Shown here piece after piece: positions 23,393 to 63,051 of a stretch of 63,117 bases of DNA. The position numbers and the translations under genes were made by a program. The stretch is from Oscillospiraceae bacterium (lineage in GTDB: Bacteria; Bacillota; Clostridia; Oscillospirales; Ruminococcaceae): positions 1-63,117 of the forward strand of contig JALEOL010000003.1 of the NCBI GenBank assembly GCA_022766785.1, in the 5' to 3' direction. The number at the start of each line of letters is the position of its first letter. The stretch's first letter is position 1. The notes beneath the pieces are model-generated. The model was not told where the DNA came from. It made no database searches and saw nothing but the letters and a program-made list of their open reading frames with translations.

Positions 23393-24604
23393 TTATGCCT
23401 TTGCCACTGCCTTGTGATATACCTTCTTGCCCTTGCGGATAATCACCTCGGGGTTTATCTCGATCTGTGCGTTTACGTCCTCGATAATTACATCGTCTAT
23501 CGCCAGACCCTTGCCGGTGATGAGCGTCCTTGCCTCGCGCTTGGAGTTTACCAGCTTTGTCGCAACCAGCAGGTCAAGAACGCCTATCCTGCCGTCAACA
23601 AGCTCTACCTCGGTGGTGGGCATATTCTCGGAATTGCCGCCCTTGCCGCCGAACAGCGCCTTTGCCGCCGCGAGAGCCTTTTCCGCTTCCTCCTCGCCGT
23701 GAACCAGCTTTGTCAGCTCGTATGCAAGTATCTCCTTTGCCTTGTTCAGCTCGCTGCCCTCCCAGTGGGACATCTCGTCTATCTGCTCCAGCGGCAGGAA
23801 TGTCAGCATCTTTATGCACTTCATTACGTCAGCGTCCGCAACGTTTCTCCAGTACTGGAAGAAATCAAACGGCGAGGTCTTTTCCGGGTCAAGCCAAACC
23901 GCGCCCTTTTCTGTCTTGCCCATTTTCTTGCCCTCGGAGTTAAGAAGCAAGGTGATAGTCATTGCGTGCGCGTCCTTGCCCAGCTTCTTGCGGATAAGCT
24001 CGGTGCCGCCCAGCATGTTAGCCCACTGGTCGTCGCCGCCGAACTGCATATTGCAGCCGTACTTCTGGAACAGCATGTAGAAGTCGTAGCTCTGCATTAT
24101 CATGTAGTTAAATTCCAGGAAAGTAAGTCCGCGCTCCATGCGCTGCTTGTAGCACTCGAAGGTCAGCATTTTGTTTACGCTGAAGCAAGCGCCTACCTCG
24201 CGCAGAACGTCAATGTAATTCAGGTTCATCAGCCAGTCGGCATTGTTCACCATGACAGCCTTGCCGTCTGAAAAGTCGATGAAGCGGCTCATCTGCTTCT
24301 TGAAGCACTCGATGTTGTGCTCGATGTCCTCTTTGGTGAGCATTTTTCTCATGTCGGATTTGCCGGAGGGGTCGCCTATCATTCCGGTGCCGCCGCCAAG
24401 CAGGGCTATCGGCTTGTTTCCTGCCATTTGCAGCCGCTTCATAAGGCACAGCGCCATGAAGTGTCCAACGTGCAGAGAGTCCGCTGTCGGGTCGAAGCCG
24501 ATGTAGAAGGTCGCCTTGCCGGCGTTTATCATCTTCTTTACCTCGTCCTCGTCAGTTACCTGCGCGATAAGTCCTCTCGCTACCAGTTCGTCGTAAAGTT
24601 CCAT
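23393..24604 (-). CDS. tyrS: Tyrosyl-tRNA synthetase
   Basis: 403 residues. Class I signatures are present as HVGHF (HIGH-like) and KMGKT (KMSKS-like); YIGFDPTADSLHVGH and QFGGDDQWANMLGG are TyrRS-specific. A C-terminal S4-like domain (from about 340: LVNSKREARTLITGKGLAIDD) binds the tRNA. It charges tRNA-Tyr. AAAGGAG precedes the ATG. The T-box upstream of the neighbouring Nudix gene probably controls it, since no separate promoter or terminator is seen in the 131-base gap. Confidence 0.97.
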   Translation of the reverse strand: MELYDELVARGLIAQVTDEDEVKKMINAGKATFYIGFDPTADSLHVGHFMALCLMKRLQMAGNKPIALLGGGTGMIGDPSGKSDMRKMLTKEDIEHNIECFKKQMSRFIDFSDGKAVMVNNADWLMNLNYIDVLREVGACFSVNKMLTFECYKQRMERGLTFLEFNYMIMQSYDFYMLFQKYGCNMQFGGDDQWANMLGGTELIRKKLGKDAHAMTITLLLNSEGKKMGKTEKGAVWLDPEKTSPFDFFQYWRNVADADVMKCIKMLTFLPLEQIDEMSHWEGSELNKAKEILAYELTKLVHGEEEAEKALAAAKALFGGKGGNSENMPTTEVELVDGRIGVLDLLVATKLVNSKREARTLITGKGLAIDDVIIEDVNAQIEINPEVIIRKGKKVYHKAVAKA

Positions 24605-25266: not shown

Positions 25267-25505
25267 AAAACCCTCCATGAGCATAACTCACAGAGGGCGA
25301 AAAACCGCGGTACCACCTCAATTACGGATATTCCCGTATCTTTGGACAGCTTTAACGGGCTTACCCGTGCGGAACTACTTGCAAACGCTTTCGCACCGCC
25401 GCTCCGGGAGGTAATTCGCCGCCGGACTCCCTGCCGCTTCGCACCGAACAGCGGCTCTCTGAAAGGGTCGTTCCGGGACTACTGATTTCCCGTCAACGCT
25501 TTAAA
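25267..25505 (-). promoter_or_regulatory. T-box riboswitch with terminator, upstream of nudix-tyrS
   Basis: The reverse strand carries the T-box core GAGGTGGTACCGCGG (25319-25305), whose UGGU bulge would pair with an ACCA tRNA end, after a Stem I region containing CAGAGAGC and GGTGCGAA-type elements. The terminator CCCTC...GAGGGTTTTG follows (25297-25267). The specifier loop reads GAAUUACC; UAC (Tyr) fits the tyrS downstream, UUA (Leu) is the other reading. Uncharged tRNA should allow read-through into the Nudix gene and tyrS. Confidence 0.88.
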
Positions 25506-57150: not shown

Positions 57151-57179
57151 TTGACAAAACAGAAGATCTGTGATATATT
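57151..57179 (+). promoter_or_regulatory. Sigma-A promoter of the fluoride-riboswitch unit
   Basis: TTGACA (57151-57156), 17-base spacer, TATATT (57174-57179); start expected a few bases before the aptamer. Confidence 0.88.
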
Positions 57180-57184
57180 ATCTA

Positions 57185-57312
57185 CAGGGAATGACGACCT
57201 CCCTGGGGACTTTCCCCGAACCGCAACAAGTTTGCTGATGGCATCTGCGATACTGCACGCCGGGAATTTTCCGGTGCGTTTTGGTATACGCAGGCTGTCG
57301 GCTTTTTTATTT
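57185..57312 (+). promoter_or_regulatory. Fluoride (crcB) riboswitch with terminator expression platform
   Basis: The aptamer at 57185-57250 fits the crcB motif: AGGGA-AUGAC ... UCCCU (P1 and loop), an optional GGGG-ACUUU-CCCC hairpin, GAACCGC, and the diagnostic 3' element GCUGAUGGCAUCUGC. That 3' element (57234-57248) is also the 5' arm of a long terminator: GCTGATGGC pairs with GCTGTCGGC (57294-57302), CTGCG/CGCAG and ATAC/GTAT inside, then TTTTTTATTT. Ligand binding should therefore favour read-through into the antiporter gene. Confidence 0.85.
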
Positions 57313-57346
57313 CCGGAACGCACCCCGGCACAACGGAGGTATAACT

Positions 57347-58531
57347 ATGTTACTTAGCGCCGCACTCATACTGATATTCGGTCTGATACTGGGAGAGACC
57401 GCCGGAAAGCTCCGTTTGCCGAAGCTTACGGGAATGCTCGCCGCCGGGATAATACTAGGAACGCTTGGCTGGCTCGACCCGAAGCTGATGGGCATATCCG
57501 CCGAACTGCGGAAGATCGCCCTGATAATAATCCTGACCCGTGCCGGGCTGAACCTGGAGCTTGCCGACCTGAAAAAATGCGGCAGACCGGCGCTTCTGAT
57601 GAGCTTTATCCCGGCAAGCCTTGAAATATTCGGGGTCACGCTGCTGGCGCATTTCCTGCTGGGGCTTGGCTTTGCCGAAGCCGCACTGATGGGAACGGTG
57701 CTTGGCGCGGTTTCCCCTGCGGTGATAGTCCCGAAAATGCTGAAACTGATGTCGGAGAAGCGCGGCACCGACAAGCTGATACCCCAGATGATCCTCGCCG
57801 GCGCGTCAATTGACGACGTGTTCGTGATCGTGATGTTTTCGGTGTTCACCGGGGTATGCTCCGGGGGAGAAGTGTCGGCGCTTTCCATTGTGAATATCCC
57901 ATTGTCGATAGTTCTGGGCGCGGCGTTTGGGGCGCTGTGCGGCGTTCTGCTTGCAATGGCTTTCCGCAGGATACACCTGGGGGACAGCGTTAAGGTCGTG
58001 ATACTGATGAGCCTTTCGTTCCTGCTGGTGTCGCTGGAGGATTCGCTGCCGGGTTACATAGGCTTCTCCGGACTGGTGGCGGTCATGGCGTGCGGCATTG
58101 CACTCAGGCAGAGATCGCCGGAACGCGCGGCGAGGGTATCGGCTAAATACTCAAAGCTGTGGACTGCCGCGGAGATCATGCTGTTCGTTCTGGTGGGCGC
58201 AGAGGTGAATATCTCAGCCGCCGCCGACATCTGGCTGCCGGTTCTCGGGATGATATCCGGGGCGCTGCTGTTCCGCTTTGCCGGGGTGTTCCTCTGCATG
58301 ATAAAGACACGGCTGAACCTTCGGGAACGGTTTTTCTGCATGATCGCCTACATGCCAAAAGCCACTGTGCAGGCGGCGATCGGCGGCGTTCCGCTGGCAA
58401 TGGGGCTTTCCTGCGGAGATACGATACTCGCCGGCGCGGTGGTGGCGATACTTGTCACTGCGACTCTGGGGGCGTTTTTGATAGAGTTCACGGCTGAAAA
58501 ACTGCTTTCGCGGCAGGAGGAACAGATATAA
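57347..58531 (+). CDS. CPA2-type cation:proton antiporter (fluoride-responsive)
   Basis: 394 residues from ATG 57347 (CGGAGGT upstream). About twelve helices; Na_H_Exchanger motifs include LRLPKLTGMLAAGIILG, LTRAGLNLEL, GAVSPAVIVPKML, GASIDDVFVIV (the Asp pair of the ion site) and MPKATVQAAIGGVPLAMG. Such antiporters are among the known targets of fluoride riboswitches, besides CrcB and CLC-F, and may compensate for HF-driven acidification or move fluoride-related ions; the exact ion is inference. It ends before a bidirectional terminator. Confidence 0.9.
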   Translation: MLLSAALILIFGLILGETAGKLRLPKLTGMLAAGIILGTLGWLDPKLMGISAELRKIALIIILTRAGLNLELADLKKCGRPALLMSFIPASLEIFGVTLLAHFLLGLGFAEAALMGTVLGAVSPAVIVPKMLKLMSEKRGTDKLIPQMILAGASIDDVFVIVMFSVFTGVCSGGEVSALSIVNIPLSIVLGAAFGALCGVLLAMAFRRIHLGDSVKVVILMSLSFLLVSLEDSLPGYIGFSGLVAVMACGIALRQRSPERAARVSAKYSKLWTAAEIMLFVLVGAEVNISAAADIWLPVLGMISGALLFRFAGVFLCMIKTRLNLRERFFCMIAYMPKATVQAAIGGVPLAMGLSCGDTILAGAVVAILVTATLGAFLIEFTAEKLLSRQEEQI

Positions 58532-58536
58532 AAACA

Positions 58537-58579
58537 GGGGCGGATAACGTGTCCGCCCCCAATTTGTTGGTTTTTTTTT
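58537..58579. terminator. Bidirectional terminator between antiporter and diiron flavoprotein
   Basis: GGGGCGGA/TCCGCCCC 8-bp stem; T tract on both strands (TTTTTTTTTG forward, TGTTTTTAT reverse). Confidence 0.9.
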
Positions 58580-59920: not shown

Positions 59921-59970
59921 GAACCAAACGGGTGCATTCTGCCCGGAATAAATCGCAAAGGGGAATGAGC

Positions 59971-60219
59971 ATGGAGCGCTGTCTGAACGAAATAAAACCG
60001 GGCGAAACTGCGGTGGTGCGGTATCTCAGGGCACACGGCAGCATGCGCCGGAGACTTCTTGATATAGGTCTTGTGGAGGGCACACGGGTGGAGTGCGTGG
60101 GGGTAAGTCCCATGGGCGACCCGGCAGCGTATCTTATACGGGGAGCGGTCATCGCGATACGCAGCGCGGACAGCCGCAATGTACTTATCAAGGAGGAACA
60201 GCATGGGTCTGACCAGTAA
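59971..60219 (+). CDS. feoA: Ferrous iron transport protein FeoA
   Basis: 82 residues, SH3-like fold: LNEIKPGETAVVRYL, RRRLLDIGLVEGTRVECVG and DPAAYLIRGAVIAIR match FeoA throughout. It is a small cytoplasmic partner of FeoB. The ATG at 59971 is spaced correctly from AAGGGG. Overlaps feoB by 17 bases. Confidence 0.93.
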   Translation: MERCLNEIKPGETAVVRYLRAHGSMRRRLLDIGLVEGTRVECVGVSPMGDPAAYLIRGAVIAIRSADSRNVLIKEEQHGSDQ

Positions 60220-62329
60220 TTCCACCGGCTTTGCCGCAGCAGGATTATGCCCGGTGATAAAGCGCCGCACCCCGGACGAGAGGATAGTCGCCATTGCCGG
60301 AAATCCGAATGTCGGTAAAAGCACCATTTTCAACAGTCTCACCGGAATGCGCCAGCACACCGGAAACTGGCCCGGAAAGACGATCGCGGCGGCACAGGGG
60401 TTCTGCCGGACGGACAAATTCAGCTATGTCCTCGCGGATATCCCGGGAACGTATTCCCTGCTGGCTCATTCCGCCGAGGAGGAAGCTGCCCGGGACTTTA
60501 TCTGCTTCGGCGAAATCGACGCGGCGATAGTCGTGTGCGACGCGACCTGCCTTCAGCGCAGTCTCAACCTTGCTTTGCAGGTAATGGAGCTGTGCCCGAA
60601 AACGCTGGTGTGCGTCAATCTCTGCGATGAAGCGAAGCGGCGTGGTATCACCCTGGATCTTGAAACGCTGGAAAGAAACCTCGGCGTGCCGGTGGTGGGG
60701 ACTTCTGCCCATGACAGGCGGACTCTCATGAGACTAACGGACGCCCTTGACCGCCTGTGCGCCGGAGCCGCCCCGGAGAACTATAAGCGGCTGCATTATA
60801 TCCGCCCGGTAGAGGAAGCGATATCCATTGCAAGAGCGCCGCTGGAACGCTTCGGCGGCAGGCTGGATCCACGGTGGCTGGCGCTGCGGCTGACCGAGGG
60901 GGACAGCTCGCTCCGGGAAAAAGCCGGGGAATACCTCAGCGCGGATCTGGAAGCAGAGGAGATAACCGCGGCGGTGGAGAAAGCGAGAACTCACCTTGCG
61001 AACTCCGACATCACACTGGATATCCTCCGCGACAGGATCGTTTCCTGCATAACCCTCAACGCCGAGGAAGCGGCAGACGGAGCGGTAACAGAATGCCCCG
61101 GCTGCCGGGACGCCGACCGCAGGGTGGATAAGCTGCTGACCGGCAGAGTGCTGGGCTATCCGATGATGATACTGCTTCTTCTGGTGATATTCTGGCTGAC
61201 GATAAGCGGCGCGAATTACCCGTCGCAGCTTCTGTCAACGGGCTTCGGATGGCTTGGGGAACGCCTGTCGGAACTGCTCGGCGGCGCCCCGGATTGGCTG
61301 CGTGGGATACTCGTGGACGGAGCCTATCGCACCTTATCCTGGGTGACGGCGGTCATGCTCCCACCAATGGCGATATTCTTTCCGCTGTTCACACTGCTTG
61401 AGGACTGCGGCTATCTGCCCCGGGTGGCGTTCAACCTCGACAAGCCGTTCCAGAAATGCAACGCCTGCGGTAAACAGGCGCTTACTATGGCAATGGGTTT
61501 CGGCTGCAACGCTGCCGGGATAGTGGGCTGCCGGATAATCGACTCAAAGCGCGAACGGCTGATCGCAATGCTCACGAACGCCTTTGTTCCCTGCAACGGA
61601 AAATTCCCGTTCATCATCACGCTTTCAACAGTTTTCTTCACGGGTGCGGCAGGTATTTCGGGATCACTGGCGTCTGCGGCTATTGTCACTTTGCTGATAA
61701 TTCTCGGCGTTCTGATGACTTTTGCGGCTTCACGTCTGCTCTCTGTCACTATCCTCAAAGGTCAGCCGTCGGGGTTCACGCTGGAACTCCCACCGTACAG
61801 AAAGCCGCAGATCGGAAAGGTGATAGTGCGCTCCATGCTTGACCGCACGCTGTTCGTTCTGGGAAGAGCGGCGGCGGTAGCGGCTCCGGCAGGCGCGGTT
61901 ATATGGATACTCGCAAATGTCAGCATTGACGGGAGCACCCTGCTGAACATCTGCACCGGGTTTCTCGACCCGTTCGCGCGGTGGCTTGGTATGGACGGTG
62001 TGATACTTATGGCGTTCATTCTGGGGCTGCCGGCGAATGAGATAGTAATACCGATAATCATAATGTGCTACATGGCTCAGGGCAGCCTGACCGAGCTTTC
62101 ACTGCCGGAGCTTTTTCAGCTTCTCACCGACAACGGCTGGACATGGCGCACAGCAGTGTGCACATTACTGTTCTCGCTGATGCACTGGCCATGCTCCACT
62201 TCCCTGCTGACTATCCGAAAGGAAGCTGGCGGCTGGAAATGGGTCGCGGCAGCGTTCCTTATCCCCACCTGCGCAGGGCTTCTCGCGTGCTTCACCGTGG
62301 CTCAGATAACAGGAGCTTTTTTTGCATGA
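60203..62329 (+). CDS. feoB: Ferrous iron transporter FeoB
   Basis: 708 residues. N-terminal GTPase: G1 [10 protein letters not shown]2 NWPGKT, G3 DIPGTYS, G4 NLCD (usual NxxD), then the GDI helical domain, then two Gate/Nramp-like repeats ([53 protein letters not shown]) with about nine helices. It imports Fe2+. An N-terminal 25-residue extension precedes the G domain. AGGAGGAACAGC precedes the ATG. No FeoC follows. Confidence 0.95.
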
Positions 62330-62406
62330 CGATCATCTGCCCTTTCAGTTGGTATATTTTTACAGTCTGTTTTTTTGCCGGACGCAGATTTTTTTTGAAA
62401 AAACCC

Positions 62407-62435
62407 TTGACAAATCCACAGGGTTGTGCTATAAT
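62407..62435 (+). promoter_or_regulatory. Sigma-A promoter of reverse rubrerythrin
   Basis: TTGACA (62407-62412), 17-base spacer, TATAAT (62430-62435). Confidence 0.93.
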
Positions 62436-62496
62436 TTTAATCAGGAAATCAAGAATAATTCCTAATTTAATAAACAATACTACGGAGGTCAAAATT

Positions 62497-63051
62497 ATGA
62501 AGTTTGTATGTCCTGTATGCGGCTATGTTTACGAAGGCGACGCGGCTCCCGAGAAGTGCCCGCAGTGCGGAGTTCCCGGCTCCAAGTTCACTGTTATCGA
62601 CGATAACGGCGGCAAGCTGGTTTTCGCTGACGAGCACAAGATCGGCGTTGGCAAGCTGGAGGGCGTTCCCGAGGAGATCATCGAGGGTCTGCGCGCTAAC
62701 TTCAACGGCGAGTGCACCGAGGTCGGCATGTATCTGGCAATGGCAAGAGCTGCTCACCGCGAGGGTTATCCCGAGGTAGGTCTGTACTATGAGAAGGCTG
62801 CATGGGAGGAAGCAGAGCACGCTGCAAAGTTCGCCGAGCTTCTGGGCGAGGTAGTATCCGCCTCCACCAAGGAGAACCTCACCAAGCGTGTTGAGGCTGA
62901 GCACGGCGCTACCGCAGGCAAGCTGGATCTCGCCAAGAAGGCAAAGGCTCTCAACCTTGACGCTATCCACGACACCGTTCACGAGATGGCAAAGGACGAG
63001 GCAAGACATGGCAAGGCATTCGAGGGTCTGCTGAACAGATATTTCAAGTAA
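62497..63051 (+). CDS. Reverse rubrerythrin (N-terminal rubredoxin, C-terminal diiron domain)
   Basis: 184 residues from ATG 62497 (ACGGAGGTC upstream). Rubredoxin site CPVCGY ... CPQCGVPG (residues 5-25) comes first, then a ferritin-like diiron domain with E-x-x-H type ligands ([54 protein letters not shown]). The domain order is reversed relative to classical rubrerythrin, as in the Clostridium acetobutylicum peroxidase. It reduces H2O2 and O2. High codon bias (a strongly expressed gene) and a consensus promoter fit an abundant protein. Confidence 0.93.

Follow-up and report, generated by a model that had tools for sequence, protein, structure and literature searches.

The locus belongs to a window of 63,117 nucleotides of Oscillospiraceae DNA (the whole stretch analysed), whose forward strand carries a compact transcription unit made up of a promoter, a riboswitch aptamer, a terminator, an antiporter gene and a closing hairpin. 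The promoter (57151-57179) is sigma-70-like, with TTGACA and TATATT boxes, a 17-base spacer and 11 of 12 bases matching. This agrees with the promoter reading of the original prediction, though chance alone would give 0.7 such sites in the 361 bases scanned, and the match by itself is weak evidence. Since the -10 box ends at 57179, transcription should start at about 57186, one base ahead of P1 of the aptamer. A ribosome-binding site, GGAGG (57335-57339), is read directly 7 bases ahead of the ATG of the antiporter gene (57347-58531; 394 amino acids), and the unit is closed at 58537-58559 by a hairpin that resembles a terminator and was detected on both strands. The likely genes flanking the antiporter lie on the opposite strand, and hence the unit has one gene. 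The coordinates given earlier proved right, with the coding start at 57347, as did the statement that the antiporter is the only gene downstream of the switch.

The leader had been assigned to the fluoride (crcB-type) riboswitches by resemblance, with a proposal to search 57180-57260 by covariance. The Rfam covariance search bears out this assignment: the fluoride riboswitch model RF01734 matches 57178-57254 at 34.7 bits (E 7.2e-6 for the whole window), narrowly passing the gathering score of 34 with 0.7 bits to spare. This is the sole match at E 0.001 in the 2.48 Mb genome. P1 is formed by 57187-57190 with 57200-57203, P3 by 57223-57225 with 57233-57235, and the pseudoknot by 57193-57197 with 57241-57245, all on the forward strand. 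Alignment and pair counting revealed that three of the five pseudoknot pairs are standard, the other two being C.A and A.G. At family level, the pseudoknotted RF01734 fold is backed by covariation. In a 26-row alignment (25 rows distinct) of aptamers from related genomes, both-sided changes occur in 6 of the 12 pairs of P1, P3 and the pseudoknot, a value matched by 4 of 500 shuffles and one of a kind that shared ancestry can inflate; 92.1% of the cells are paired, as against at most 61.2% with the partners slid. One of the five covariation measures, that of further pair types, gave no excess over shuffles (221 of 500 reach its value).

The low score, together with the two non-standard pairs, could indicate that the aptamer of the window has decayed, in which case fluoride would no longer be sensed and the gene would be constitutively terminated or on. 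We regard this as highly improbable, as P1, P3, the terminator and the reading frame are all intact, and the C.A pair recurs in L018, L024 and L031, the three closest congeners with the aptamer-antiporter pair; in L031 it is followed by A-U and C-G at the next two pairs. The count covers the window and these three, while L107, which lies near all four in the protein tree, was left out of it. The window holds a weak-scoring variant that is apparently conserved. The C.A pair sits in the middle of the pseudoknot in place of A-U; if protonated to A+.C, it could make switching depend on pH and thereby attune it to HF stress.

The 3' strand of the aptamer, GCTGATGGCATCTGC (57234-57248), closes both P3 and the pseudoknot and is at the same time the 5' arm of an intrinsic terminator (57234-57312), which represents the expression platform. 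The 3' arm ends at 57302 and is directly followed by the T run TTTTTTATTT (57303-57312). Folding of 57178-57313 pairs this strand with the one ending at 57302 (-51.7 kcal/mol, z -4.4), and none of 200 shuffles is as stable. A terminator re-using the aptamer 3' strand with at least 11 pairs was found in 20 of 21 antiporter leaders (the window and 20 relatives, L031 being the sole miss) versus 76 of 420 shuffled controls. The double role claimed for this strand is thus borne out by folding and by conservation among relatives, and the platform is exclusive with the aptamer. A laxer terminator criterion, passed by 85 of 86 leaders but also by 192 of 430 shuffles, was discarded. The leader resembles the transcriptional type of RF01734 riboswitch in its P1, P3, pseudoknot, conserved core and strand-sharing terminator, and differs from it in the two non-standard pseudoknot pairs and in a hairpin nested within the terminator. 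This extra stable hairpin, in the terminator loop at about 57254-57278, is also present in L018 and L024 and was seen in only these three of the 16 leaders compared.

A transcriptional ON switch can as good as be read from this anatomy, while fluoride as the ligand is inferred from the riboswitch class. When fluoride is absent, the aptamer 3' strand would be drawn into the terminator (57234-57302) and transcription would stop at the T run; when it is present (as Mg-F), the pseudoknot would keep the 3' strand, the terminator would be blocked and the antiporter would be made.

The protein matches PF00999 at 152.5 bits (gathering score 26.2) and has no second Pfam match. It reaches the cut-off of no NCBIfam model: TIGR00932, a curated CPA2 subfamily, gives 38.1 bits against a cut-off of 238.3, and PRK05326, the equivalog of NhaP2-type K+/H+ antiporters, 78.5 bits against 355. 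In 19 orthologues, the scan gave matches to the same NCBIfam models, with a best E-value of 3.5e-22. When the family profile was compared with solved structures, the nearest relative was SLC9B2/NHA2 (PDB 7b4l and 7p1i), matched over its full length at 215 and 209 bits, the next match scoring 63.5 bits. D156 is kept in 112 of 113 homologues, D157 in 113 of 113, K338 in all 112 that have a letter at this position, and E276 in 111 of 113; E93, R310 and E327 are conserved along with them. Judged from the sequence, the Asp-Asp pair and the Lys make up the ion site that characterises CPA2 cation/proton exchangers, and DD-type exchangers are electrogenic. Since this site is conserved, the earlier CPA2-type label holds, in keeping with NHA2 as the nearest solved relative, and the protein can be classed as a bacterial antiporter of the NHA/SLC9B type.

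The bacterial family and NHA2 have in common, besides full-length homology, the DD pair and the motifs SPAVVVP and PKATVQAAIG. NHA2 differs in being an animal protein without a riboswitch, and the alignment shows Gln where the bacterial proteins have E276. Gln also occupies this position in the aptamer-carrying members from Ilyobacter and cyanobacteria. Two cyanobacterial members with an aptamer (L285 and L287, from Picosynechococcus and Leptolyngbya plasmids) have Ser-Asp in place of Asp-Asp, and scanning showed both of these proteins to be fusions of the antiporter with a universal-stress domain.

Analysis of 100 related genomes, including that of the window, revealed 27 aptamer sites in 26 genomes, with the antiporter present at 20 of these 27 loci. 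RF01734 matches upstream of all 21 antiporter orthologues in this set; 19 of the matches exceed the cut-off and two fall short of it (28.8 bits in L024 and 27.8 bits in L031, the latter for the twenty-first orthologue, in G035). In 381 genomes sampled from the class, the antiporter is present in 62 genomes (66 matches, E 1e-40) and the aptamer in 82 (98 sites); for 50 of the 66 antiporter matches, an aptamer lies no more than 600 bases upstream. Among the 85 class aptamers above the cut-off, 49 stand before the antiporter, 13 before CrcB and at least six before a CLC gene, the last being counted among the matches listed and perhaps underestimated. The antiporter family is, therefore, the commonest fluoride riboswitch target in the class sample.

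The named loci that we studied further are the best 80 of 566 confirmed antiporter matches. At 66 of these 80, our own aptamer model matches within 450 bases, two of the matches (L087 and L114) being doubtful: that of L087 has an E-value of 0.038 and was treated as linked in the 66 and as unlinked in the tree, and L114 is within the 66, yet has no Rfam match up to E 0.01. At two further loci, the aptamer lies 1.2 and 2.2 kb upstream. For the protein alignment and tree, L118 was removed (a wrong start had been taken), and the 79 remaining rows of these best-ranked loci comprise 69 Bacillota, four Spirochaetota, four Bacteroidota, one member of the Pseudomonadota and one unassigned. Aptamer presence changes at least 18 times on this tree, and aptamer-free members are thus scattered. 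Of six loci outside the Bacillota that were searched with Rfam, those of Parabacteroides, Bacteroidales and Rikenellaceae exceed the cut-off, two from Brachyspira fall short of it (at 31.8 and 26.4 bits), and the third from Brachyspira is L114, mentioned above.

Plasmid records gave 797 protein matches at E 1e-20, only 12 of which cover at least 80% of the protein. Ten plasmid loci were listed and six checked, and all six have an over-cut-off aptamer upstream of an antiporter of 36-50% identity: Acetoanaerobium, Peptoclostridium, two of Picosynechococcus, Leptolyngbya and Ilyobacter. The laboratory cyanobacterium Picosynechococcus sp. PCC 7002 has the aptamer-antiporter pair on pAQ7, its riboswitch scoring 47.5 bits. 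In Peptoclostridium (L284, 2308-4131), the gene of a CBS-domain protein lies between the aptamer and the antiporter. The linkage accordingly extends to Bacteroidota, Fusobacteriota and Cyanobacteriota and, more weakly, to Spirochaetota.

When 15 unlinked antiporter genes were rechecked, 14 were without an aptamer and one had a weak match of 19.9 bits. The notion that the aptamers of unlinked antiporters lie farther up an operon was rejected, as an additional stretch of up to 5 kb, searched in 14 of 16 cases, contained none; of the other two, G283:C137 ends at a contig edge and G213:C126, an edge fragment, was left out. In a survey of open frames of at least 90 amino acids within 2.5 kb, where several loci are clipped by contig ends, no gene recurs in more than six of the 80 named loci (best 80 of 566), and a tblastn search with CLC proteins found none in the flanks of these loci. 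The antiporter unit travels alone. In Anaerotignum neopropionicum (L091, 2720-6179), an aptamer leads a row of genes that ends in the antiporter; those before it are, we presume, a NifU-like gene, one for a GGGtGRT protein and, directly before the antiporter, a UspA-like gene.

The distribution of the antiporter was then compared with that of CrcB. Neither CrcB nor CLC was found in the genome of the window, which is 85.75% complete. Among the 100 relatives, 21 have an antiporter orthologue, 24 have CrcB and none has both. Within the genus (43 genomes), the numbers are 10, 18 and none (P 0.0017), and in its 27 good genomes, five, 15 and none (P 0.0098); three rank strata combined give P 0.0004. 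In the 381 genomes of the class, the antiporter occurs in 62 and CrcB in 73 (72 over the cut-off), with one shared genome against 11.9 expected (Fisher p 1.3e-5), kinship being handled in these exclusion tests by rank strata rather than by a genome tree. The single shared genome, G466, holds a distant member of the antiporter family (318 bits). Nine families and five genera in the class sample include some genomes with the antiporter and others with CrcB, without overlap; a tenth family and a sixth genus have both only through G466. Of 50 named antiporter genomes searched (from the best 80 of 566 loci), two have CrcB, both of them Bacteroidota, and 26 of the 62 class antiporter genomes lack CrcB as well as CLC of every kind. 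Antiporter and CrcB are hence almost mutually exclusive in the genomes sampled, as would be expected of an alternative exporter.

CLC genes follow another pattern. None was found in any genome of the genus, and those of the class (CLC of any kind, 159 genomes) overlap with the antiporter in 36 genomes against 25.9 expected and with CrcB in 48 against 30.5. CLC-F signatures, as given in the accessible text of PMC11139923, were sought in 33 of the 36 class genomes with both antiporter and CLC (G161, G350 and G465 were left out). Two come near the signature without an exact match: G441, with GMALL, GREGV and GEVVP, by a loosened pattern, and G394, with GNNII, GREGT and GEVTP, by eye where the pattern missed it. 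Six are ambiguous (G294, G306, G321, G404, G412 and G423). In the subset of class CLCs examined, the antiporter is present in two of ten genomes with CLC-F-like signatures, against 1.6 expected. The proposal that the CLC of antiporter genomes is a CLC-F merely assisted by the antiporter thus does not account for most of these genomes. A GTN-type CLC in G044 fails the signature, yet its solved matches are CLC-F structures only, which means that the signatures alone do not decide the matter. A CLC variant of the form GND..GREGAAI..GEVIP was seen in G294, G306, G321, G412 and G423, all of them antiporter genomes (5 of 5 among the fetched CLCs, a set that favoured such genomes); it could represent a CLC-F type that has escaped recognition, or else a partner.

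The pairing of fluoride riboswitches with Na+/H+ antiporters is already published. According to the accessible portions of a review (PMC11139923, citing Baker et al. 2012), these antiporters are the next commonest riboswitch-linked class after the exporters and are read as serving pH homeostasis, and in C. difficile (CD0656-7), a riboswitch-linked antiporter shares an operon with a CLC-type gene (PMC11477304, from the part available). New here are the target counts in the class, the avoidance of CrcB, the reach of the linkage across phyla and the lack of regular neighbours. Like these known cases, the locus has an aptamer upstream of a gene of the Na+/H+-antiporter family; in contrast to them, it is a stand-alone unit, and its antiporter is of the NHA/SLC9B type, the commonest target in the class sample, and avoids CrcB genomes. 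In the sections available of PMC9495176, PMC7266159, PMC11077948, PMC13104614 and PMC5533749, CrcB and/or CLC-F are named as the exporters, with no claim of an antiporter as the main defence, and a search of the open-licence literature found no such claim among the papers listed, which is weak evidence of absence. CrcB/Fluc and CLC-F are under the control of the same riboswitch class, and CrcB and the antiporter fill the same place in different genomes, but their folds are unrelated, and the former are proven fluoride exporters while the antiporter is a candidate only.

The original prediction of a stress role is probably too weak, as the genome distribution suggests a stand-in for the CrcB channel; from this distribution, the antiporter looks like a substitute rather than a helper. 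We consider it an evenly balanced proposition that the switch and its NHA/SLC9B-type exchanger constitute the main fluoride-induced defence in place of CrcB, acting through H+/cation exchange, and, as far as the sequence goes, this is the most likely of the three readings of the protein. In most genomes holding it, the antiporter would then be the main inducible answer to fluoride. HF would enter the cell and accumulate as trapped F- to a degree set by the pH gradient; by admitting H+ against Na+ or K+, the antiporter would lower this gradient, and F- would leave as HF. The lowest internal F- that such a mechanism could achieve is the concentration outside. It may be likened to that of Kef, a CPA2 exchanger with regulatory domains whose gating depends on glutathione adducts, as opposed to the window protein, which matches PF00999 alone. 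In the available part of PMC10224563, Kef K+/H+ antiporters are likewise described as protecting against a toxicant by acidifying the cytoplasm. Against the exchange reading stand the published pH-homeostasis view, the C. difficile operon with its CLC-type gene, a probable exporter, the scattered aptamer-free antiporters, the overlap with CLC above expectation and the lack of a sign of CLC-F exclusion among the ten genomes with CLC-F-like signatures.

Several of these points would suit an antiporter that only helps, repairing pH or Na+/K+ balance after HF influx has acidified the cytoplasm, with the avoidance of CrcB reflecting ancestry or ecology. This is the published reading, to which the retained DD and Lys of a cation/H+ exchanger, the C. 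difficile co-operon, the positive overlap with CLC genes and the assessment of kinship by ranks rather than by a genome tree all lend weight. A helper should, however, be equally useful beside CrcB, and the near absence of shared genomes argues against it; the two genes replace each other within nine families, five genera and the genus of the window. Moreover, CrcB itself overlaps positively with CLC, and no regular neighbour gene accompanies the antiporter in the 80 named loci (best 80 of 566). We therefore view a purely auxiliary role as rather unlikely, though it is a stronger contender than the following one.

The same distribution could also arise if the protein were itself a fluoride exporter on the NHA fold (exchanging F- for H+, say, or moving it together with a cation), to be placed beside CrcB/Fluc, CLC-F and FEX. 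Its exclusion of CrcB resembles that between CrcB and CLC-F, which, according to the accessible text of PMC11139923, are usually mutually exclusive, with both in about 3% of strains. Also in favour of this reading, the near-invariant E276 is Gln in NHA2, and the Ser-Asp of the two aptamer-carrying cyanobacterial members implies that the cation site is not fixed. However, conservation of Asp-Asp and Lys speaks against direct export, D157 and K338 being typical of cation/H+ exchangers, and E276 is itself replaced by Gln in aptamer-carrying members from Ilyobacter and cyanobacteria. We know of no NHA-type protein that transports anions, and deem direct export improbable.

Proton/cation exchange as the main defence is thus the reading that we favour. 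If antiporters of this kind do replace the channel, they would be an unrecognised main fluoride defence in many anaerobes, and perhaps in spirochaetes, fusobacteria and cyanobacteria. Exporter-less species tend to be reduced-genome symbionts, with Tenericutes, Spirochetes and Fusobacteria as examples, in the accessible text of the review (PMC11139923), and the antiporter occurs in Spirochaetota and Fusobacteriota, two of these groups. With somewhat less confidence than in an even call, we suggest that bacterial NHA/SLC9B-type antiporters form a fluoride-resistance family, sufficient without CrcB or CLC-F, from Clostridia to cyanobacteria and including Spirochaetota and Fusobacteriota, which would work by direct export or by proton exchange that turns HF leakage into export, and of which NHA2 would be a relative. 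The RNA ligand would also give a physiological role to an exchanger that falls below every NCBIfam cut-off.

Elsewhere in the window, a T-box leader (127.8 bits; 25290-25505, reverse strand) lies upstream of a gene at 23393-24604, which we take to encode a tyrosyl-tRNA synthetase. Beyond the antiporter unit, 59932-63051 presumably holds FeoA/FeoB-like genes for ferrous iron transport and, after them, a rubrerythrin-like gene.
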